Source of the DNA: Haloferax marinisediminis
GTDB taxonomy: Archaea > Halobacteriota > Halobacteria > Halobacteriales > Haloferacaceae
Direction: 5' to 3'
NCBI RefSeq assembly: GCF_009674585.1
Contig: NZ_WKJP01000004.1
Span: forward strand, 1 to 64,000
DNA: 64,000 nucleotides
Positions 16,901 to 53,355 of the stretch are shown piece by piece. Every line of letters begins with the position of its first letter. Positions within the stretch are counted from its first letter, which is position 1. The notes beneath the pieces were generated by a model, which did not search any database, was not told where the DNA came from, and saw only the letters and a list, made by a program, of their open reading frames with translations. The translations under genes and the position numbers were made by a program.

Positions 16901-17977
16901 TCAGAGGCGCTCCGCTGTGCCGCGGTAAATACGATAACACCGTTCGAGAACTTCGAGGTTCGCACTCTCAGTGTCTGTGTGGGCTTCACCCGGCTCAGAT
17001 GCTCCACAGACAACACAGGTTACTCCTGCCCCGACGAGTCGCCCGGCATCAGTCACGTGCGGTTTCGTGGTCAATTCTGGCTCGCCATCCTGTGCATCGA
17101 CTGCGGCAGCGAGCACAGTCTCAGCGAACGCCTCGTCGTCACAGCGCATCGGCGGTCCATCGTAGTTGACGGTCCATTCGACCCCGTCGATATTCTCGAC
17201 CTGACTGAGGTCGACTCGTTCACCGGGGACCGTGCGTTCGTCTACTGTCAGCGTGCACTGTCCTGGAATCACGTTCGAGGCGTTCCCACCGTCGTGAATT
17301 TGAGTGACGACTGCCGTCCCTGAAAGTTCCTCACCGAACACCTCGACGTGCGGACGTGGGAGGTCACGGATGAGGTCTATCGCTTCGGTCGCGCGGTAAA
17401 TCGCGTTCACTCCAGCGCTCGGTTCACTCGCGTGAGAGGGTTCACCCTCGACAGTGATTGTACTGCCACGACCCCCCTTGTGCGCAACGACGACATCCGT
17501 GACGCCGGGTTTCGAGTAGTTCGTCGAACCCTCTCCAACGATTGCGAAGTCCGGTGCGAACCCTTCGTTTATCGCGTGTGTGGCACCAGTCCCGCCGGTT
17601 TCCTCCCCAACGAAGCTCGCGAAGACGAGTTCACACGACGGGTCAGCATCTCTGAAGGCGAGCATTGCTGCCGCGACAGATCCCTTCATATCTGCAGTCC
17701 CGCGACCGTAGAGTCGACCGTCTCGCTCTTCGACGATGTATTCTCCTTCGTCGTTCGTCTGGCTTGCCGCAGGCGCGACCACGTCGTGATGGCCGACAAG
17801 CGCGAGCGAGGTTTCACCAGTTCCGCGACGTGCGATGACGTTTCCAACGTCGTCACGTACGACCTCGCCCGCAGTCTCTTCGCGAAGCCACTTCTCGATG
17901 AAGTCACCAGCAGCAGTCTCGTCTTCGTGACTCGAAATTGAAACGAGTTCCCTCGTCAGTTCCGCAACTGTTGTCAT
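16901..17977 (-). CDS. M20 family zinc amidohydrolase (ArgE/DapE-like)
   Basis: A protein of 358 residues. Metal and catalytic motifs are in order: GHHDVV (about residue 62), GTADMKGS (about 93, the bridging Asp), GEETGGTGATH (about 124, catalytic and metal Glu), a lid/dimerisation domain opening with EGEPSHASEPSAGVNA, and a C-terminal ASEPGEAHTDTE histidine. This is the layout of succinyl-diaminopimelate desuccinylase, acetylornithine deacetylase and related peptidases. It lies 63 bases after the HpcH/HpaI aldolase gene on the same strand and is divergent from a peptide transporter, so hydrolysis of an imported acylated amino acid or dipeptide is likely. The exact substrate is unknown. Confidence 0.88.
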   Translation of the reverse strand: MTTVAELTRELVSISSHEDETAAGDFIEKWLREETAGEVVRDDVGNVIARRGTGETSLALVGHHDVVAPAASQTNDEGEYIVEERDGRLYGRGTADMKGSVAAAMLAFRDADPSCELVFASFVGEETGGTGATHAINEGFAPDFAIVGEGSTNYSKPGVTDVVVAHKGGRGSTITVEGEPSHASEPSAGVNAIYRATEAIDLIRDLPRPHVEVFGEELSGTAVVTQIHDGGNASNVIPGQCTLTVDERTVPGERVDLSQVENIDGVEWTVNYDGPPMRCDDEAFAETVLAAAVDAQDGEPELTTKPHVTDAGRLVGAGVTCVVCGASEPGEAHTDTESANLEVLERCYRIYRGTAERL

Positions 17978-18040: not shown

Positions 18041-18826
18041 TTACCGGTCCGCGTGTATCTCCTCGAGACGAGACCCAAGAACACTCCTCGTTGCAGCAAA
18101 CTCGTCACCTAACTGCACGAGCTGTGCACCCCGCTCGACCGCATCTGTTGCGTCGTCAGCAGTCGAGACGAATGTCCCAATCGGAACGTCTGCAGCAAGT
18201 GCTGCTTCCCACACGTGGTCGAGCGCCTCTCTCACGTCTGGATGGTCGGTTTCGAGCGGGTGGCCGTACGAAACTGAGAGGTCTGCTGGCCCAAGAAACA
18301 CACACCCGAGCTCTGGGACGGAGAGAATCTCCTCGATGTTTGCAACTGCATGCTTGTTCTCGATCAGTGCACCGACGAACACGGTGTTGTCCTGTCTCGT
18401 CGGATAGTTTTCGAAGTCTGCACCCCAGACGTTCGGGTACGAACCGCCTACCCCCCGTTCCCCCGCTGCATCGTCGTACGTAAATCGAGCTGCTTTCACT
18501 GCCGTCCGTACGTCGTCTGCCGTCTCTACACGGGGAACGAGGATATTTCGGATTCCGGAGTCGAGCACCTTTCGGACAGTCGATGGGTCACCAGACGCCA
18601 TTCGTACCAAAATCTCTGTCTCCGCGACATCTGCGGCTCGGGCAAATTGCTGCAGCATCGGACTGTCGAGAGGGCTGTACCCCGTATGTTCTGTGTCTAC
18701 GAAGACGAAATCGAGTCCCATCTCGCCGTACACGTCGACAAACATCGGTGAATTTGACCGTGTCCGTGCTCCGAACACCACACCATCACGTTCTACTGAG
18801 TCACGAAGGTCGTTGGGTCGTCTCAC
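18041..18826 (-). CDS. HpcH/HpaI family aldolase
   Basis: A protein of 261 residues, the usual length for class II pyruvate aldolases such as HpaI or GarL. The barrel motifs are FVFVDTEHTGYSP (the base-binding Glu-His), a metal-site region including VGALIENKHAVANIEEIL (Glu), and VFLGPADLSVSYGHP (Asp). Members cleave 4-hydroxy-2-oxo acids to pyruvate and an aldehyde; related citrate-lyase-like enzymes act on CoA esters. It is first in a two-gene unit with the M20 amidohydrolase and divergent from the Dpp transporter. The start is the first ATG of the frame. Confidence 0.87.
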   Translation of the reverse strand: MRRPNDLRDSVERDGVVFGARTRSNSPMFVDVYGEMGLDFVFVDTEHTGYSPLDSPMLQQFARAADVAETEILVRMASGDPSTVRKVLDSGIRNILVPRVETADDVRTAVKAARFTYDDAAGERGVGGSYPNVWGADFENYPTRQDNTVFVGALIENKHAVANIEEILSVPELGCVFLGPADLSVSYGHPLETDHPDVREALDHVWEAALAADVPIGTFVSTADDATDAVERGAQLVQLGDEFAATRSVLGSRLEEIHADR

Positions 18827-19121: not shown

Positions 19122-20939
19122 ATGGCAGATTATATCAAGCCCCCATCTCCAGATGAGGGTACCCATGGAGATGGTAGTGGAAGCAATACACGCCGCCGGT
19201 TTATGCAGGCAGCCGGAGCCCTCGGGCTCGGTGGAATCACGGCACTAGCAGGGTGTAGTTCACAGGATGATAACGGGAACTCGGGCAGCAGCGACGGAGG
19301 CAGTGGTGATGGCCTCACGAAAGTTCCAGAGATTCAAGTCGTCGGTGAGACTCAAGAGCGCGGCATCGTCCACTACGTCCTGAAGACGTGGGCAGAGACC
19401 GTGAACGACGAGACCCCGTTCGAGGTCAACTTCCAACCGATGAAGCACACGCAAGTGGTGGAAAAGACGATGTTCGAGCAATCTGTTCACATGGGTTCGC
19501 TCACCTTTGGGCCACGACCCAACCGTCTCGACCCCCACATGCTCCTCAACGACATCTACAACACGAACAACCTCGGTTGTGGAACGTACCAGTGGTCGTC
19601 GTACTCCAACGAAAACCTGGATGAGCTTCTGGACACGCAGGCGACAGAGATGGACCGGGACGAGCGGCAAAAGACCGTCCACGAGATTCAGGAGAAACTT
19701 GCGACACTCGACGGTGACGTCGACTTCGGTTCTGTGCGAGCACTCATCCACCCGATGGTGGTTCAGCTCTACAACAAGGACCTCTTCGAGGGGGTTACAG
19801 TTGTGAACGGACAGGGAATCCGTAACATCTGGACCTACAACGAGACCCAGCCCAAGACAGACCAAACCCGGATGGTCATCCCGGTGACGATTGGTGCGAA
19901 CAACCTCACGCCGTTGTTCTCCGGTGCGCTGAACCTCGAAGCAGTCCGGAATACCTTCGATAAGTTGACGCAAATCGGCCCGGACGGCGCTCCGAAGCCG
20001 TGGCTCGCAACCGACTGGGAGGTCGCAGACAACGACAAGGACATCACGTTCAACCTCCGCGAAGGCCACACATTCCACGACGGCGAACCGGTCACTGCCG
20101 AACACGTGGCGTTCACCTACGAGTACATGGAGAACAGCCCACTCCTGGCATCTGCCGTGAAGCCAGTCGAGTCGACGGAGGTTATCGACGACACCACGAT
20201 CAAGTTCACACTGACTGAGCCGTTCGCTCCGGTGTTCCTCTTTACTTTCTCTCGCGTTCCAATCCTCCCGAAACACGTCTGGGAAGACATCCCAGAGAGC
20301 GTCGACGCGACCAAAGCAGTCGAGTGGTCACCGTCTTCCGAAGGGAAGTTCTTCGGCAGTGGGCACTTCAAGTTCAAGAACTGGCGGAAGGGCGAAGAAC
20401 TCGTGCTCGAAGCGAACGAAGACCACTTCAGTCCACCGGGCGTCGACGAAATCGTCTTCCGACTGGTCAAGAGCTCGCAGGTGGCGCTCGATTCGATGGC
20501 CTCTGGCGACTCACACCTCCTCTACACGGTCGACGCCAGTCGGTCGGTCATCAAAGATGTCGGAGAAGAGAACGACCACCTCGCGACCGAGGAGATTCTC
20601 AGCATGGGCAACCATCCACTGATCTTCAACACGAACGCACCGCCGTTCGGGTTCCCGGAAGTTCGCGCAGCACTCGAGTCTGTGGCGCCGAAACAACTCA
20701 TCGCCGACGAGGTCTGGGACGGGTTCGCAGAACCTGCATTCGGCAACATCAGTCCCGCAGTCCCCTTCTGGTTCAACGAAGACCAGAAGAAGTGGGGTAT
20801 GGAGTACACCGGAAAAGAGACGTTCACGAAGGTGCTCGAAGACAGAGGGTTTACCCTCACAGACGACGGCGTCTACTACCCCGAAGGAGAGGTCCCAGAC
20901 CACTCCGAGCCGCTCGGGTGTGAAGTCCACGAGAACTAG
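19122..20939 (+). CDS. dppA: Peptide ABC transporter substrate-binding lipoprotein with permuted module order
   Basis: A Tat-exported lipoprotein of 605 residues: RRRFMQAAGALGLGG signal, lipobox ALAGC with lipidated C45, then an Asp/Ser/Gly-rich linker. The rest belongs to the SBP_bac_5 family, but the order is odd. Residues about 66-240 look like the usual C-terminal part of the family: GPRPNRLDPHMLLNDIY, YSNENLDELLDTQATEMDRD, then VVQLYNKDLFEGV. Residues about 245-605 look like the usual N-terminal and middle parts: GPDGAPKPWLATDWEVADND, LREGHTFHDGEPVTAEHVAF, FGSGHFKFKNW, and ending EDRGFTLTDDGVYYPEGEV. The start at 19122 precedes the Tat motif by a short polar leader. It is first of five transporter genes; the role is capture of peptides or similar solutes outside the membrane. 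Confidence 0.9.
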   Translation: MADYIKPPSPDEGTHGDGSGSNTRRRFMQAAGALGLGGITALAGCSSQDDNGNSGSSDGGSGDGLTKVPEIQVVGETQERGIVHYVLKTWAETVNDETPFEVNFQPMKHTQVVEKTMFEQSVHMGSLTFGPRPNRLDPHMLLNDIYNTNNLGCGTYQWSSYSNENLDELLDTQATEMDRDERQKTVHEIQEKLATLDGDVDFGSVRALIHPMVVQLYNKDLFEGVTVVNGQGIRNIWTYNETQPKTDQTRMVIPVTIGANNLTPLFSGALNLEAVRNTFDKLTQIGPDGAPKPWLATDWEVADNDKDITFNLREGHTFHDGEPVTAEHVAFTYEYMENSPLLASAVKPVESTEVIDDTTIKFTLTEPFAPVFLFTFSRVPILPKHVWEDIPESVDATKAVEWSPSSEGKFFGSGHFKFKNWRKGEELVLEANEDHFSPPGVDEIVFRLVKSSQVALDSMASGDSHLLYTVDASRSVIKDVGEENDHLATEEILSMGNHPLIFNTNAPPFGFPEVRAALESVAPKQLIADEVWDGFAEPAFGNISPAVPFWFNEDQKKWGMEYTGKETFTKVLEDRGFTLTDDGVYYPEGEVPDHSEPLGCEVHEN

Positions 20940-21040: not shown

Positions 21041-22015
21041 ATGGCATTTAGAAACTACTTAGCGAAACGTCTCGTCGGGACGGCGTTCTCGTATCTGGTC
21101 ATAGCGACGATGATATTCTTCATGTTTAGACAGATTGGTGACCCACTTGGGCTTCACATCTCTCCGAACATGTCCCCGCAGCAAGTCACCGAGTTGAAAG
21201 AGGTGTTCGGTCTGAACGACCCGTGGTACGTCCAATACTTCACGTTCCTCAAGGGCCTCGTCACGTTCAACTGGGGGATCAGTTTCTACTACATGGAGTC
21301 GACGTACGGTATCGTCACCCAGCGACTGTTCAATAGCCTCTTGCTCACACTCCCGGCAATCCTCATCGGGTACATCGGTGGGATTCTCGGCGGCATCTAC
21401 CTCGGATGGAAGCGTGGCCAGCCGTCAGAGCGATTGGGGATGATTATCGCCCTGCTCTTTCGCTCGACCCCCAGATTCTGGGTTGGCATTCTCCTCATCT
21501 TCGTCTTCGGGGCCAAACTCGGCCTCTTCCCGATGAGCGGGATGCTCTCTCCAGGGTCTGAGTTCGGTGGCCACCTCGAACTGCTCGTCCGACCAGATTT
21601 CTACTGGCATGCAGCCCTCCCGATCGCGTCGATGACGCTGTATCTAATGGGCCTCCCGTTGTTACTCATGCGGACGAGCATGCTCGAAGTCATCAACATG
21701 GACTTCGTTGATCTGATTCGTGCGAAAGGTGCGAGTGAGCAACGGGTCATGTACCGTCACGTTGCACGGAACGCCATGCTCCCAGTATCGACTGCATTCG
21801 CGGTCGCAATCGGGTTCTCGTTTGGGGGGAACGTGCTCGTCGAGACAGTGTTCTCGTACCCCGGAATTGGCCGACTGATGGTGAACTCCGTGTTCCGTGG
21901 AGACTACCCAGTCGCCCAGTTTTCCTTCCTCATCATGGCCGCCGTCGTCCTTGTGATGAATCTGGTCGCAGACATCGCCTACGGTTACCTGGACCCACGG
22001 GTGTCCTACGAATAA
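21041..22015 (+). CDS. dppB: Peptide ABC transporter permease (DppB type)
   Basis: A protein of 324 residues with about six membrane helices, the normal size for DppB. The N-terminal family domain opens YLAKRLVGTAFSYLVIATMI. The cytoplasmic EAA loop, which docks with the ATPases, reads DLIRAKGASEQRVMYRHVAR followed by NAMLP. It follows the binding-protein gene by 101 bases and precedes the second permease by 7. Together they form the transmembrane channel. Confidence 0.92.
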   Translation: MAFRNYLAKRLVGTAFSYLVIATMIFFMFRQIGDPLGLHISPNMSPQQVTELKEVFGLNDPWYVQYFTFLKGLVTFNWGISFYYMESTYGIVTQRLFNSLLLTLPAILIGYIGGILGGIYLGWKRGQPSERLGMIIALLFRSTPRFWVGILLIFVFGAKLGLFPMSGMLSPGSEFGGHLELLVRPDFYWHAALPIASMTLYLMGLPLLLMRTSMLEVINMDFVDLIRAKGASEQRVMYRHVARNAMLPVSTAFAVAIGFSFGGNVLVETVFSYPGIGRLMVNSVFRGDYPVAQFSFLIMAAVVLVMNLVADIAYGYLDPRVSYE

Positions 22016-22022
22016 CTCAACA

Positions 22023-22955
22023 ATGTCATCACAAACAGACTCACCACCGGACCGTACCGTCCCGCAAACTAGCGAGCTACAACGGCGTCTCACGAAGTTC
22101 CGCGAGACGCTCAGTATCGTCTTCGACAACGATATGGCGAAAGTCGGTGCAGTCATGCTGACTCTCTTCGTCCTGATGGCGGTGTTCGCACCGGTCATCA
22201 CACCAAACGTTCCCGACGAGCGCGTCACCACGGATGACGGCTCGTGGGTGAAAGAAGCAGGACCGTCGGCGGAGTACCCACTGGGGACGACAACGCAAGC
22301 GTACCCAATCTTTAGCCAACTCGTCTACGGGACTCGCATCGCGTTTATTGCTGGACTTCTGACGGCGTTGATGGTCGGGGGAATTGGAACGCTTGCCGGC
22401 ATCGTCTCGGGGTACTACGGTGGGGTCACGGAAAGCGCAATCATGCGTCTCGTCGACATCACCTACGGGATTCCGTTCCTCCCCTTCGCAATCGTCCTCA
22501 TCATCGTCGTCGGTGGGGGGAGCATCTTCAACATCGTCTTCGCAATCTCTCTCCTCCTCTGGCGGGGGACGGCGCGAGTCATTCGGTCGGAGGTCATCTC
22601 GATAAAAGAACAACCGATGATAACCGCGGCGAAGGCGAGCGGTGCGAGTAACAAACGCATCATGCTCTATCACATCCTGCCGAAGGTGTTACCGACCAGT
22701 GTCCTCTACTCGGTGTTTGCCATCGGGTGGGCAATCATCGCAGAAGCCGGGCTTTCGTTCATCGGGCTCGGAGACCCCGACATGTTGAGTTGGGGGAAGA
22801 TGTTGAACACGGCCTACGTCGGAAACGCAATCCAGTTAGACATGTGGAACTGGATCATCCCACCGGGACTGTTCATTACACTGTTCGTAATCTCTGCGTA
22901 CTTCGTCAGTCAGGGTATCGAAGAAGTTGTGAACCCACAGCTGAGGGAACCATAA
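22023..22955 (+). CDS. dppC: Peptide ABC transporter permease (DppC type)
   Basis: A protein of 310 residues with a soluble N-terminus of about 40 residues (including the OppC_N helix LRRLTKFRETLS-like segment), then six helices. The EAA loop is ITAAKASGASNKRIMLYHIL followed by PKVLP. It pairs with the DppB-type permease. The stop is directly adjacent to the ATG of the first ATPase, so translation is coupled. Confidence 0.92.
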   Translation: MSSQTDSPPDRTVPQTSELQRRLTKFRETLSIVFDNDMAKVGAVMLTLFVLMAVFAPVITPNVPDERVTTDDGSWVKEAGPSAEYPLGTTTQAYPIFSQLVYGTRIAFIAGLLTALMVGGIGTLAGIVSGYYGGVTESAIMRLVDITYGIPFLPFAIVLIIVVGGGSIFNIVFAISLLLWRGTARVIRSEVISIKEQPMITAAKASGASNKRIMLYHILPKVLPTSVLYSVFAIGWAIIAEAGLSFIGLGDPDMLSWGKMLNTAYVGNAIQLDMWNWIIPPGLFITLFVISAYFVSQGIEEVVNPQLREP

Positions 22956-23990
22956 ATGACACTCCTAACTGTAGACGACCTCTCCATCGAGTACACGGCC
23001 GACGAAAAGACGATAAAAGCAGTCAACGGCGTCTCCTTCGAGATTGCGGAAGGCGAACGATTCGGTCTCGTTGGTGAAAGTGGCTCCGGGAAGACGACAA
23101 TCGCCAAGGCGATTATGCAGTTACTCCCAAAGAACGGTGAAGTCACGAGCGGATCTGTCGAACTCACGAACGATAGCGTCTCACTCGACTTAGTCACCGC
23201 GAGCAGCCGTGAACTGCAGGATATCCGGTGGAAACACCTCGCAACCGTCTCACAGAGTGCGATGAATGCACTCGACCCGGTGTATACCATCGGTGCACAG
23301 ATTATCGAAGCGATACAACTCCACGAGGACGTCTCGAAGGCCGAGGCACGGGAACGAGCGGGTGAGTTGCTCGAACGTGTCGGAATCGACAAAGAGCGTG
23401 TAGACTCGTACCCGCACCAGCTCTCTGGTGGGATGCGCCAGCGCGCGATGATTGCAATGTCGATGGCACTCGAGCCATCGCTCATTATCGCAGACGAGCC
23501 GACGACTGCACTCGACGTCATCACCCAAGACCACATCCTCGATCAGATCGACCAGTTGAGTAACGCGGTCGGGAACTCACTCTTGATGATTACGCACGAC
23601 ATCAGCGTCGTCTCCGAGACGTGTGATCGAGTGGGCGTAATGTACGCTGGGGAACTCGTCGAGGTCGGACCCACAGAGGAAGTATTCACAAACCCAGAAC
23701 ATCCCTACACGAAGGGACTGCTCAACGCATTCCCGACACTAGAGGGTGAGTCAGATTCAGAGCTAATCACGATTACGGGTGAGCCTCCGAAGCTCATCGA
23801 CGTCGAACCTGGCTGTAAATTCATGGACCGCTGTCCGTACGCTGAAGCGCGATGTGGAGAGTCAGACCCTGCACTCACACCGAGAACACCAGGTCGAGAA
23901 GCAGCCTGTTTCGTAACCGCAGACGGCTACGACCTCGAAGAACACTACGAACAAGTCGTTACGGAGTCAGAAAAATGGCAAAAACTCTAG
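22956..23990 (+). CDS. dppD: Peptide ABC transporter ATPase (DppD type)
   Basis: A protein of 344 residues. Walker A is GESGSGKTTIAK (about residue 39), the Q-loop is in TVSQSAMNALDP, the signature is LSGGMRQR, Walker B is LIIADEPTTALD and the H-loop is MITHD. The C-terminal oligopeptide-transporter extension (HPYTKGLLNAFP) carries clustered cysteines (CKFMDRCPYAEARC and a later ACF) typical of Opp/Dpp ATPases. It overlaps the next ATPase gene by 16 bases. Confidence 0.93.
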   Translation: MTLLTVDDLSIEYTADEKTIKAVNGVSFEIAEGERFGLVGESGSGKTTIAKAIMQLLPKNGEVTSGSVELTNDSVSLDLVTASSRELQDIRWKHLATVSQSAMNALDPVYTIGAQIIEAIQLHEDVSKAEARERAGELLERVGIDKERVDSYPHQLSGGMRQRAMIAMSMALEPSLIIADEPTTALDVITQDHILDQIDQLSNAVGNSLLMITHDISVVSETCDRVGVMYAGELVEVGPTEEVFTNPEHPYTKGLLNAFPTLEGESDSELITITGEPPKLIDVEPGCKFMDRCPYAEARCGESDPALTPRTPGREAACFVTADGYDLEEHYEQVVTESEKWQKL

Positions 23991-25003
23991 TCAAAGCTGA
24001 AGGACTGTCGAAGCATTTCCCTGTGGAGACAGGTCTTCTCGAACGCTTCCGCGGAAATCAGCAGTACGTACACGCTGTCGACGGAATTGACATCGAAATA
24101 AAGAAGGGCGAGATATTCGGTCTGGCAGGAGAAAGTGGGTGTGGAAAGACCACCACCGGGCACTGCCTCATGCGTCTCTCTGACCCCACTGCTGGGGAGA
24201 TTTATTTCGGAGACCAGCAACGCAACATTGCACAGCTCGAAGGAACAGACCTCAAGAAATACCGTCGTGATGTACAGATGGTGTTCCAAGACCCCTACGA
24301 GTCGATTAACGACCGGTTCACGGTCCGCAAGTGGGTACGAGAGCCGCTCACCATCCACGACATTGGGACACGAGAAGAGAAAGAAAACCGCGTGTGGGAG
24401 GCGCTCGACCAGTGCGGCCTGAAGCCAGTCGAGAACTTCATCGACAAATACCCGCACGAACTCAGCGGAGGACAGCGTCAGCGTGTCTCGTTAGCTCGTG
24501 CGATGGTTCTTCGGCCAAAGTTCATCGTTGCCGACGAGCCAACGTCGATGCTCGACGTCTCGGTGCGAGCGGGCGTCCTTCGGGTATTCAAAGAGCTCGC
24601 CGAAGAGCACGACGTCTCCATCCTGTACATCTCCCACGACCTTTCGCTCCTCCGGTACATCTGTGACCGTATCGGAATCATGTATCAAGGCGAGATGATG
24701 GAAGTGGGTGAAGCGAACGCAGTCCTTCAGAATCCGAAACACCCCTACACGCAAACGTTGTTGAAAGCCGTTCCACGCGTTGATTCGCGGAACGAGCGGA
24801 ACCGCGTTCGCATTTCTGGGGAAGTGAACGAACGCATTGGCGGGATTCAGGGATGTGCCTTCAAAGACCGGTGTCAGTATCGGTTCGACCGGTGTGACGA
24901 CGAGAGCGAACTCCTGGAGGTCGGGAAGACGGACGACCACGAGGTCTCGTGTCACCTCCACGACGAAGAAGTAGAAAAACCAATCCCGGTCTACGAAGGG
25001 TAA
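23975..25003 (+). CDS. dppF: Peptide ABC transporter ATPase (DppF type)
   Basis: A protein of 342 residues starting at ATG 23975, within the end of the previous gene; longer translations upstream are arginine-rich and not credible. Motifs: Walker A GESGCGKTTTGH, Q-loop QMVFQDPYESINDR, signature LSGGQRQR, Walker B FIVADEPTSMLDVS, H-loop ISHD. The C-terminus again has the cysteine cluster (CAFKDRCQYRFDRC). It forms the heterodimeric motor with the DppD-type protein. Confidence 0.93.
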   Translation: MAKTLVKAEGLSKHFPVETGLLERFRGNQQYVHAVDGIDIEIKKGEIFGLAGESGCGKTTTGHCLMRLSDPTAGEIYFGDQQRNIAQLEGTDLKKYRRDVQMVFQDPYESINDRFTVRKWVREPLTIHDIGTREEKENRVWEALDQCGLKPVENFIDKYPHELSGGQRQRVSLARAMVLRPKFIVADEPTSMLDVSVRAGVLRVFKELAEEHDVSILYISHDLSLLRYICDRIGIMYQGEMMEVGEANAVLQNPKHPYTQTLLKAVPRVDSRNERNRVRISGEVNERIGGIQGCAFKDRCQYRFDRCDDESELLEVGKTDDHEVSCHLHDEEVEKPIPVYEG

Positions 25004-25811: not shown

Positions 25812-26612
25812 TTAGTACCGAATCACCTGTGAAGGGTTCTGTGTAACCAGGTTTACTTCGATGATGTTGGCGGCCTCGATGACGAGTTGCGGTAACAGAC
25901 CGTACGCGAGTTCGTCCGGGAGCTGGCTCTTTGGCCGAGAGACTGCAATCGCTCCAAGCACATTGTCGTCAGTGTCTAAGATAGGGACACCAATTGCACG
26001 AATACCCTGCACAGCCTCTTCGTCACTGATTGCGTAGCCCTGCTCACGAATCTCGACGAGTTCAACGAGGAGTGAGTCGACGTCCGTAATCGTATCGGGT
26101 GTCTTGGCTGGGAGACCGTGGGTTTCGACGATCCACTCGACGTACTCTAATGGGAGGTGAGCCAGAATTGCTTTGCCGCACGAGCTCACGTGGAGATGGT
26201 CGGACCCCTCGAGTCGACGGGCACTGAACTCTTCAGAGACCCCCTGATTCCCGATCTCTCGATGGAGATAGATGGCCTTCCCAAACTCCTCGATGATGAG
26301 GCCCGCGTGACCACCCGTGAACTCTGCGAGGTGCTCCAGTTCGGGTTTCGCAATGTTGTACAGGTCAGTGCGATGCTTGACAGTGTGACCGAGGTTGAAG
26401 AATCGATGGCTGAGCCGGTATTCAGCGCCATCTTTGACCAGATATTCCCGCTCGTGCAACGTCGCAAGATGATTGTACACACCTCCTTTCGAAAGGTCGA
26501 GATGAGACGCTAGCTCCGAGACACCGGCACCATCCAACTCTTGGAGTGCCTCGATGATATCTAACGTCGTTTCGACAGTCTTGAGTGTCCGCATGTACGC
26601 GTAGTATTCCAT
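25812..26612 (-). CDS. IclR family transcriptional regulator (1)
   Basis: A protein of 266 residues from ATG 26612; ATG 26594 is an alternative. The N-terminal winged helix (about residues 8-65) includes GVSELASHLDLSKGGVYNHL. The C-terminal IclR effector domain covers about 80-255, with SSCGKAILAHLPLEYVEWIV and YAISDEEAVQGIRAIGVPIL and an end LPQLVIEAANIIEV. A perfectly spaced palindrome lies 16 bases upstream of its start. It is convergent with the Dpp operon and may control the Dpp, M20 and HpcH genes or the sugar cluster beyond; effector unknown. Confidence 0.9.
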   Translation of the reverse strand: MEYYAYMRTLKTVETTLDIIEALQELDGAGVSELASHLDLSKGGVYNHLATLHEREYLVKDGAEYRLSHRFFNLGHTVKHRTDLYNIAKPELEHLAEFTGGHAGLIIEEFGKAIYLHREIGNQGVSEEFSARRLEGSDHLHVSSCGKAILAHLPLEYVEWIVETHGLPAKTPDTITDVDSLLVELVEIREQGYAISDEEAVQGIRAIGVPILDTDDNVLGAIAVSRPKSQLPDELAYGLLPQLVIEAANIIEVNLVTQNPSQVIRY

Positions 26613-26627
26613 CCCCCTATGATAAGT

Positions 26628-26644
26628 GTTTGTGCTATACAAAC
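26628..26644. promoter_or_regulatory. 17-bp palindrome at the IclR-1 promoter
   Basis: GTTTGTGCTATACAAAC has arms GTTTGT and ACAAAC around CTATA-type spacing and obeys the pattern GTTTG-N7-CAAAC. It lies 16-32 bases upstream of the start at 26612, where it would cover the TATA region and transcription start. Autoregulation by the IclR protein is the simplest reading. Confidence 0.6.
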
Positions 26645-27432
26645 GAAAAATGCTGGGCATTTCAGAATGAGGTTTCTCGACGAATAAAACACACAGTGTG
26701 TGAATGGACTGTACATTCTAGTCTTGCAGCTCCTCAGCTGGCATGGTCCATCGAGCAGGTGGCGCGGTTGTTTGAAACGATAATATTTGTGTGAGTTGCG
26801 CGTCAAATGACGAATAGTTGCTTATTTCCTTCATTTATTATATCTTTTGAAGTGATAGTTCATATTCAATTTGAGCAAGGGTATTGTGTGTATTTATCAT
26901 AGTAAGGAATATTTTTTCAGATGTATATTCAAGTATATGTAGTATCTAAACAGATTCAATACGTTCTGCCACCAATCACAGACGAAACGTATAGTTCATT
27001 CTGTTCCATATTGAGGGGTGAACAGGGTTCAGAAAACACCATTTTCAATCTGTGTAACCCACTCAGAAGGCATTCTAGCAATTACTCGTTGAGCTACGAG
27101 CGATGCTAGTCGAACAGCACATTATATCAGTATCTTTATAATACAATCGAACCATTATATTTTATTCATATATGATGAGAACTATTTTGTGACTTTATCC
27201 GTCGACGTCGAAGAAGAGTTTACGTGACAAACTATCGTCTGGGTGATTCGAAGTCTCAGTTTGTACTTCGGAATGTCCGACGATGACCACGAGTAACGCT
27301 GCGTAGTCGGAGAATCAGACCGGACAGTGAGATAAAGGAGAACAGTCGAGCGCGGTAATCTTTCGAGGGGGTCTTCGCGACAGTGATACGAGTGTGCTAT
27401 CGTGTCAGACAACGGGTCTGGCGCATCTCGTA
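26645..27432. other. AT-rich gap before the sugar cluster
   Basis: This 788-base stretch is AT-rich, especially 26800-27180, and has no supported gene. Short frames at 26921-27109 (plus) and 27182-27412 (minus) have cysteine, serine and tyrosine contents unlike haloarchaeal proteins. I see no IS ends here. Confidence 0.5.
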
Positions 27433-51534: not shown

Positions 51535-53355
51535 TCATTTCTTGGCCGTGAGCTCACCCTGACGTGGGAGCCACTCGCTTGGCCACTTGACTGCTCGTTC
51601 GTCACTGCCCGCCTCCGGGACGTTCCACTCGTCGTCGGTGAGCCACGACTGGTCCAACTTCGACACCAGTCCGAGGACTGGGAGGTTCTGGTTGTGGTGC
51701 CACGCGACACGCTTGATGATCTCCTCGGTCTTTGCTCGGTCCTGCGTGGTCGACACCTCCTGTATCTCCGACAGTGGGTCGATGGTCATCTCGCCGCCGT
51801 CCATTCCGGGGACAGTCTGTTCGCCCTCCGAGAAGTTGTGACCGCCGTCGATGTCCGGGATGTTAAGCTGCCAGCGCAGCGGGAAGTACGGGAACGCCGA
51901 CCGTGCCCCACCAGGCATCCAGTAGAATGCACCAATTTTGAAGTTGCCCTCGATGTAGCCACCGAAGTAGTCGCCAGTGGGCTTCTGACTGATTTCGAAG
52001 TCGAAGCCGAAGGAGTTCAACTGGTCGACGACGGTGTTCGTCGCCGTGGTCCAGTCCGTCCACCCAGCGGGCGTGTAGTACGTCCCGCCAAGGGTCCGGC
52101 CACTGCTGTGTTTCCACGTGCCGCCCTCTTTCGAGTAGCCAGCCTCACGGAGGAGTGACGCAGCCTTCTCCGTCTGGGATTCGGCCATTCCGTAGCTCTC
52201 GAACGAATCGTAGGCGTCACCGAGCCACGCCTCTTGGTCGTTCGGTGCGACACCAGTGACCTTCGGTGCGGGTGCCTTCGTTCGCGGTCCTGCGTTCTCG
52301 GCGACTTGCTGTCGGTTGATGACGTGCGCGACGGCTTGTCGGACTTTTCGCTTCCCGAAGTCGGGGTCATCGTGGTTGAACAACACACCGTACCCCCACT
52401 TCGCGGAGATGGAAATCTCCTCGACGGAGTCGGGGAAGTTGGCGACGATCTTCGGCGGTGCGAAGAGACTCGTGACGAAGTCGAGTTCGCGACCCATCAG
52501 TCCCTGCTGGAGCGCGGTGTTGTCTCCTCGCGAGAGCAGCGAGATACCCGCGAAGTTGACGTTGTCGGCGCCGTAATACTCGGGATTCCGCGTGAGTTCC
52601 CACGACTGTTTGGACTTCGACTCGACCGAGAAGGGGCCACTCGCAACCACGTCGTTTTCCCACTTGAACTGCTGGAGTTCCTCAGCGTCCTTGTCGAGGA
52701 ACTGTTCGAACGTCGGGTGGTAGGCGTACAGTCGAAGCGACCCGTTTGCGAGAGTATGTTTGATGACCTCCGGGTTAGATGGTCGCTTCAGGTTGAGAAC
52801 GACCGTTTTGTCGTCTCCGCCCTGTTCGACGCTCTCGGTGAAGTCCCAGAGCGATGCGCCCATCTTCTTCATGAGACGGAACTGAGTTAAGACGTCACGG
52901 GCGGTCACGTCCTCACCGGTGTCCCACTTCAGGTCGTCGCGGAGCGTGAGCGTCACCGTCTCTTCATCGATGGCCCACTCCTCGAGTGCGCCCATCTCGA
53001 ACTCCTTCGTGTTGAAGTTGTAGGCCGCAAAGCGCTCGAAGACGAAGTTCCCTGCGCGAGGGTCGTAGTTCTGAGTCGCTTCCGGATTCAGGTGCAGGTT
53101 CGTCGGGACGCCATTGTTCGTGGCACCGACCAAGGTCTTGTCCACGACGCTTGGTCCTCCCGAGTCGGTCGACTCGTCTCCCGAACCATCGTTCGAACCG
53201 CCACCTCCCGAACTATCGTCGGTGGTGTCGTTCTCGGAGTTGTCGTCCGAGCCACCGGTACAGCCTGCGAGAGCGGCTATTCCGGATGCACCGGTCAGTT
53301 CGACAAAACGGCGTCGGCTAACGAGATCGCTATAGCGGTCAGTACTGTCTGACAT
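51535..53355 (-). CDS. oppA: Oligopeptide ABC transporter substrate-binding lipoprotein (canonical order)
   Basis: A protein of 606 residues with a Tat signal (SRRRFVELTGASGIAA), lipobox ALAGC with lipidated C32, and a long Asp/Ser/Gly linker to about residue 70. The SBP_bac_5 domain is in the usual order: an early LRDDLKWDTGEDVTARDVL, a middle ASGPFSVESKSKQSWELTRN, VRQAVAHVINRQQVAENA, and near the end DFEISQKPTGDYFGGYIEG and LSEIQEVSTTQDRAKTEEII. It is the first gene of the minus-strand operon and contrasts with the permuted protein at 19122. It probably binds peptides; the ligand is unknown. Confidence 0.92.
   Translation of the reverse strand: MSDSTDRYSDLVSRRRFVELTGASGIAALAGCTGGSDDNSENDTTDDSSGGGGSNDGSGDESTDSGGPSVVDKTLVGATNNGVPTNLHLNPEATQNYDPRAGNFVFERFAAYNFNTKEFEMGALEEWAIDEETVTLTLRDDLKWDTGEDVTARDVLTQFRLMKKMGASLWDFTESVEQGGDDKTVVLNLKRPSNPEVIKHTLANGSLRLYAYHPTFEQFLDKDAEELQQFKWENDVVASGPFSVESKSKQSWELTRNPEYYGADNVNFAGISLLSRGDNTALQQGLMGRELDFVTSLFAPPKIVANFPDSVEEISISAKWGYGVLFNHDDPDFGKRKVRQAVAHVINRQQVAENAGPRTKAPAPKVTGVAPNDQEAWLGDAYDSFESYGMAESQTEKAASLLREAGYSKEGGTWKHSSGRTLGGTYYTPAGWTDWTTATNTVVDQLNSFGFDFEISQKPTGDYFGGYIEGNFKIGAFYWMPGGARSAFPYFPLRWQLNIPDIDGGHNFSEGEQTVPGMDGGEMTIDPLSEIQEVSTTQDRAKTEEIIKRVAWHHNQNLPVLGLVSKLDQSWLTDDEWNVPEAGSDERAVKWPSEWLPRQGELTAKK

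Follow-up and report, generated by a model that had tools for sequence, protein, structure and literature searches.

Natural circular permutations are usually regarded as ancient one-time events that set distant relatives apart. A naturally permuted binding protein of an ABC importer has been described in Treponema pallidum (Tp0684/TpMglB-2, 'Type Ic / Cluster Bc'); it has retained ligand binding and closure, and its authors suggested tethering as the driver of its topology (PMC4990184). Circular permutations are also known from the DNA methyltransferases and from saposin/swaposin; general models have been reviewed, and duplication intermediates are documented for the permuted methyltransferases (PMC3320104). 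In the open-access literature searched, no description of a natural permutation in substrate-binding protein (SBP) family 5 was found.

The protein described here, P0001, is a member of SBP_bac_5, whereas TpMglB-2 belongs to the type I/cluster B glucose-binding family; the solved relatives listed for P0001 are all from SBP family 5. P0001 is homologous in both modules to the canonical members of SBP_bac_5/cluster C (DppA, OppA, AppA, NikA; PDB 1xoc, 5isu, 1dpp), with which it shares haloarchaeal lipoprotein export and the Dpp/Opp permease–ATPase operon, but its modules are swapped, and its new termini lie at a helix/hairpin that corresponds to about position 286 of 368 in the Pfam profile. As in the methyltransferases and saposin/swaposin, the permutation occurs in natural genes; unlike in those families, the events in SBP_bac_5 separate close orthologs (about 45–60% identical) that occupy the same operon position.

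The gene of P0001 lies in a 64,000-nucleotide stretch of Haloferax DNA (the window). Re-reading of the sequence returned the open reading frame, its coordinates and its motifs just as the original prediction had given them; the frame comprises 605 amino acids and a stop codon. A Tat-like signal with a lipobox (Cys45) is followed by the C-terminal module, a short linker, and the N-terminal module; in terms of sequence blocks, the lipobox and tether precede a block with YSNENLDELLDTQATEMDRD, which precedes a block with LREGHTFHDGEPVTAEHVAF, and the chain ends soon past DDGVYYPEGEV. The export signal carries the lipobox (RRR...LAGC), and its match to the Pfam model TAT_signal is sub-threshold (E 0.27). 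The last element of the N-terminal-type module is the hairpin DDGVYYP, the cut point of the parent fold.

19122..20939 (+): circularly permuted SBP_bac_5 lipoprotein, P0001 (Pfam, phmmer, canonical-only profiles)
19122..19256 (+): export signal, RRR/hydrophobic stretch (Tat-like) and lipobox LAGC (sequence NTRRRFMQAAGALGLGGITALAGC)
19254-19256 (+): predicted lipidated Cys45 (lipobox LAGC)
19257..19319 (+): Ser/Gly/Asp-rich tether, residues 46-66 (sequence; pLDDT <50 over residues 1-62)
19320..19841 (+): C-terminal-type module placed first, residues ~67-240 (canonical-only C-module profile 96-194; phmmer piece 144-194)
19842..19865 (+): new junction between the ancestral C- and N-termini, residues 241-248, ETQPKTDQ (alignment)
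19866..20882 (+): N-terminal-type module placed second, residues 249-587 (Pfam 291-585; canonical-only N-module profile 271-576)
20883..20936 (+): new C-terminal tail, residues 588-605 (sequence; low pLDDT 595-605)

The evidence for the swapped order, which the original prediction had read from motifs, comes from several homology searches that concur. The Pfam profile PF00496 matches P0001 with 180.4 bits (cut-off 32.4) but covers only residues 291-585, which correspond to profile positions 2-286 of 368; the permutation thus accounts for an annotation that labels only half of these proteins. A phmmer comparison with a solved DppA/OppA-type structure (PDB chain 5isu) recovers both halves as two pieces in swapped order, with residues 291-559 aligned to 58-321 and residues 144-194 to 407-457. 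A C-module profile for which only the C-terminal parts of canonical proteins were used (39 sequences, none of them permuted) matches residues 96-194 (52-55 bits, E 3e-15), whereas residues 245-605 give no match; the corresponding N-module profile matches residues 271-576 with 229.6 bits. Chance similarity is ruled out by 200 shuffles of residues 65-240, which scored at most 4.0 bits with the same C-module profile. P0001 therefore matches the family profile but departs from the canonical N-then-C order, and it is filed as a permuted variant of SBP_bac_5 because the C-module (96-194) precedes the N-module (271-576).

Rearrangement of the sequences leads to the same result. In the REARRANGEMENT test, P0001 in canonical order matches positions 2-350 of the Pfam profile instead of 2-286 (186.8 vs 180.4 bits). 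For L023, a bacterial relative, rearrangement extends the match from 45-326 to 46-469 of 488 positions in the NikA model, from 50-381 to 50-540 of 556 in the Opp4A model, from 31-368 to 42-507 of 535 in the DppA model, and from 3-285 to 3-366 of 368 in Pfam. The full-length NCBIfam models do not extend their match on rearranged P0001, because its C-module is divergent. The two segments of P0001 are both homologous to the same parent, their order is swapped, and after rearrangement they cover the full parent, which confirms P0001 as a genuine circular permutant within SBP family 5 (SBP_bac_5; DppA/OppA/NikA type).

The fold may also be retained. An AlphaFold2 model of P0001 built with 45 sequences has a mean pLDDT of 77.5 and a pTM of 0.78, with low confidence for the first 62 residues, and the top PDB matches of this model in Foldseek are all members of SBP family 5. 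The sequential matches cover about 245-400 aligned columns of the canonical SBPs of ~500 residues (target TM-score about 0.4-0.55), as expected if a sequential aligner follows only the larger segment, and none of the best 60 PDB chains covers the permuted profile as a single segment. Since Pfam labels only residues 291-585, the N-terminal 240 residues might be taken for an unrelated domain added to a complete canonical SBP. This is highly improbable: residues 96-194 are recognized by the canonical C-module profile, no such match exists past residue 245, the chain stops at the point that corresponds to profile position 286 of 368, and the partial Foldseek coverage of canonical chains implies that P0001 does not consist of a full canonical fold plus an additional domain. 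The original prediction thus withstood the two outcomes that it had named as fatal, an unrelated domain at residues 66-240 and an extra domain on a complete fold. The SBP fold would be kept despite the permutation. Its cut site, a surface helix/hairpin, presumably sits in the second lobe of the canonical members, and the tethered N-terminus would be shifted to this lobe.

Tethering as the cause of the permuted order was considered and rejected. A lipobox-like motif is present in 53 of 63 permuted haloarchaeal proteins but in only 2 of 67 bacterial ones; the 65 bacterial proteins that lack it indicate that the order does not depend on tethering.

The gene of P0001 heads an operon with two permeases and two ATPases of the Dpp/Opp type, near which further genes are located.

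16901..17977 (-): M20 ArgE/DapE-type deacylase/peptidase, probable metabolic partner (family match)
18041..18826 (-): HpcH/HpaI-type aldolase, divergent from the SBP gene (family match)
21041..22015 (+): DppB/OppB-type permease (NCBIfam Opp2B/Opp4B-like)
22023..22955 (+): DppC/OppC-type permease (NCBIfam Opp4C-like)
22956..23990 (+): DppD/OppD-type ATPase (family match)
23975..25003 (+): DppF/OppF-type ATPase (start MAKTLVKAEG assigned by inspection)
25812..26660 (-): IclR-family regulator (family match)

Where a bacterial locus includes 4.5 kb or more of downstream sequence, which applies to 55 loci, the order SBP–permease–permease–ATPase–ATPase is kept without exception. Among the 46 bacterial loci of permuted SBPs with full flanks, homologs of M28 peptidases are present at 37 and homologs of hydantoinase B likewise at 37, and many bacterial loci carry an IclR regulator or an Asp/Glu racemase. 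The association with M28 peptidases and hydantoinases points to a conserved uptake-and-hydrolysis pathway. Judging from the neighbouring genes (M28, hydantoinase B, M20, HpcH/HpaI, IclR), the cargo of P0001 is likely to comprise short peptides or small derivatives of amino acids (acylated, carbamoylated, or cyclised). In the bacterial loci L063-L131, the permuted SBP operons are strongly linked to genes of M28 peptidases and hydantoinases/oxoprolinases.

P0001 is not a single oddity but a member of a large permuted clade. The original prediction had contrasted it with a second SBP in the window (51535-53355), which does have the canonical order (Pfam 11-352) but is encoded on the minus strand. 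The contrast is real and larger than claimed, because the genome encodes ten SBP_bac_5 proteins, of which five are permuted and five canonical. The permuted genes besides that of P0001 are located as follows (contig and start).

C1:2375542 (-): permuted SBP_bac_5
C1:2452579 (-): permuted SBP_bac_5
C4:64013 (+): permuted SBP_bac_5
C5:186258 (+): permuted SBP_bac_5

The gene at C4:64013-65629 (+; L005/L017), which is located just past the right end of the window, represents another branch of the same permuted clade (clade 1). The canonical genes L013 and L018 have no C-module match with the profile of the permuted family, and their Pfam matches are in canonical order. In the SBP at 51535-53355 (-), the C-terminal module is too divergent for the C profile of the permuted family.

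The same order occurs in other haloarchaeal genomes, with the Dpp-type operon conserved. A profile of permuted proteins has matches in 110 of 116 haloarchaeal species, and among the matches listed, the permuted order (a match collinear through both modules) is present in at least 70 of the 116. A test of both modules classified 145 open reading frames as permuted and 34 as canonical, with none ambiguous and five without a C-module match; all 20 regions fetched as likely permuted and 14 of 15 fetched as likely canonical were assigned as expected, the exception being L174, which is permuted. Sequential alignment, profile libraries, and fold searches have to be used with caution, as they catch only part of many haloarchaeal binding proteins.

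The permuted order extends to Bacteria. A tblastn search of plasmids with P0001 yielded single-piece matches in Nitratireductor (E 7e-63), Microvirga, Ketogulonicigenium, Roseomonas, and Neorhizobium, and a scan of genome contigs yielded 69 loci with a match to permuted SBPs, mostly from Alphaproteobacteria but also from MAGs labelled as Trueperaceae, ANGP1, Armatimonadetes, Thermomicrobiales/Chloroflexia, and Rhodoferax. In each of six bacterial genomes, the scores clearly mark one copy as permuted, by a wide margin, and the other matches listed look canonical. The matches listed for phage records are only partial and of the canonical type. The Nitratireductor plasmid (NZ_CP029209.1:248631-250124) may carry a second permuted SBP, as judged from a single-piece match to a paralog (L016). 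The genome of the window is a draft in 6 contigs, which could raise the suspicion of an assembly or gene-calling artefact; the probability of such an error is negligible, because the same order occurs in scores of independent genomes and in complete plasmids, with intact reading frames and conserved operons.

In clade 1, which is large and old and includes P0001, the permuted order is fixed. Two further ortholog groups of haloarchaea contain SBPs of both orders, the permuted ones being about 44–60% identical to the canonical ones in both modules. Searches with canonical L175 and with L019, a paralog from the genome of the window, each retrieved canonical and permuted orthologs within the same class of genomes. 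Canonical L175 shares 43–44% identity with permuted L156/L161 but at most 31% with every other row, and it is 53% (N-module) and 54% (C-module) identical to permuted L217. The respective values for canonical L237 are 56% and 45% with permuted L229 and 51% and 53% with permuted L234.

It is conceivable that the halves of proteins like P0001 were combined by recombination from different paralogous genes, since many SBP paralogs per genome provide potential donors and clade 1 has no known close canonical counterpart for comparison. Such a chimera is very unlikely, because the two modules of the permuted proteins in groups 2 and 3 have their closest relatives in one and the same ortholog group, at similar levels of identity (57%/60% for L234 and L248; 52%/54% in the N- and C-modules of permuted L252 and canonical L267). 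Both modules of L234 and of L252 place with strong support next to the same canonical protein, and separate trees of the N- and C-modules agree in requiring four changes of order each.

A circular permutation that occurred repeatedly is also supported by the phylogeny of the entire proteins. Four changes of module order are needed on a tree of 90 proteins and six on a tree of 76 rows, both of which are quick searches with long branches. Forcing all permuted rows of the latter into a single clade costs 757 log-likelihood units and is rejected (p-AU 0.0003), with groups for this and the following AU test chosen after a tree had been seen. A careful tree of ortholog group 3 alone (40 rows) requires four changes, three of them forced by starred branches, and a single permuted clade within this group is rejected as well (p-AU 3e-6).

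These counts are independent of the root and do not by themselves separate gain from loss, and canonical L173, L248, and L264 adjoin or fall inside permuted groups, as would be the case if one ancient permutation had been followed by several reversions. This scenario is nevertheless unlikely, not only in view of the forced single clade but also because permuted groups 2 and 3 are nested among canonical orthologs with canonical outer branches, because canonical copies predominate in the bacterial genomes examined, and because the cut sites, although at nearby positions, are offset by tens of residues between groups and even inside group 3 (L229 vs L252). The cut in clade 1 lies between an end at ...LEDAGYTLEGDRLHYPG and a start at IRTIDLFTRPQ, that in group 2 between ...NQRMGDEYSRY and a start near LSDGFEEAGF, that in group 3a between ...KQLLADNLSGDYAFE and GDTLVGPDGEQVSL, and that in group 3b (L252-L254) between ...QPRWSQFYPSTDE and FPRFGVDDLYG. 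In our reading, permutation took place independently three times or more (in clade 1, in group 2, and in group 3); there were probably five or six events, some of the changes within groups being potential reversions. Canonical L173 (G061:C8:82810-85966) is placed weakly among the permuted proteins of clade 1 on two quick trees, which reflects either a long-branch misplacement or a reversion.

Operons headed by permuted and canonical SBPs have an identical gene order in groups 2 and 3, and the permeases and ATPases of matched pairs are orthologous (61–70% and 60–71% identical, respectively). The same operon position and the orthologous transporter genes indicate that the receptor was rearranged while the transporter was not. 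Close orthologs that occur repeatedly in both orders in matching operons constitute matched natural pairs, which allow testing how a rearrangement spreads, how it affects folding and ligand closure, and whether it makes a difference to an ABC importer where its membrane anchor is placed. Taken together, P0001 is very probably the lipid-anchored receptor of a Dpp/Opp-type ABC importer and a natural circular permutant of SBP_bac_5 whose arrangement arose repeatedly. It is possible, albeit far from assured, that permutation recurs in haloarchaeal SBP_bac_5 genes, with at least five independent events and a hotspot in lobe two, either because the shift of the anchor is favoured or because local recombination offers an easy route, which would make module order evolvable within orthologous operons.

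In the proposed mechanism, a short linker would have joined the N- and C-termini of the parent, and new termini would have opened at the surface helix/hairpin at ~286 of 368 Pfam positions. The two-lobed trap would still fold normally, enclose its ligand, and pass it on to the same permeases, with the membrane tether attached to the second lobe rather than to the first. The most likely route would be a tandem duplication of the SBP gene in the operon, followed by fusion and trimming of the outer halves; it is favoured because the SBP was permuted in place and the transporter genes are unchanged. No duplicated N-C-N-C intermediate was present among the open reading frames examined. The junctions between the C- and N-modules often comprise 5-15 residues, a shortness that is in line with ancestral termini lying near each other in the parent fold. 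Those of L020, L174, L166, and L167 are of low complexity and rich in T/S/P or D/E, resembling the tethers of haloarchaeal lipoproteins, which is suggestive of an old lipoprotein tether that was kept after fusion, perhaps as a relic of a second gene copy.
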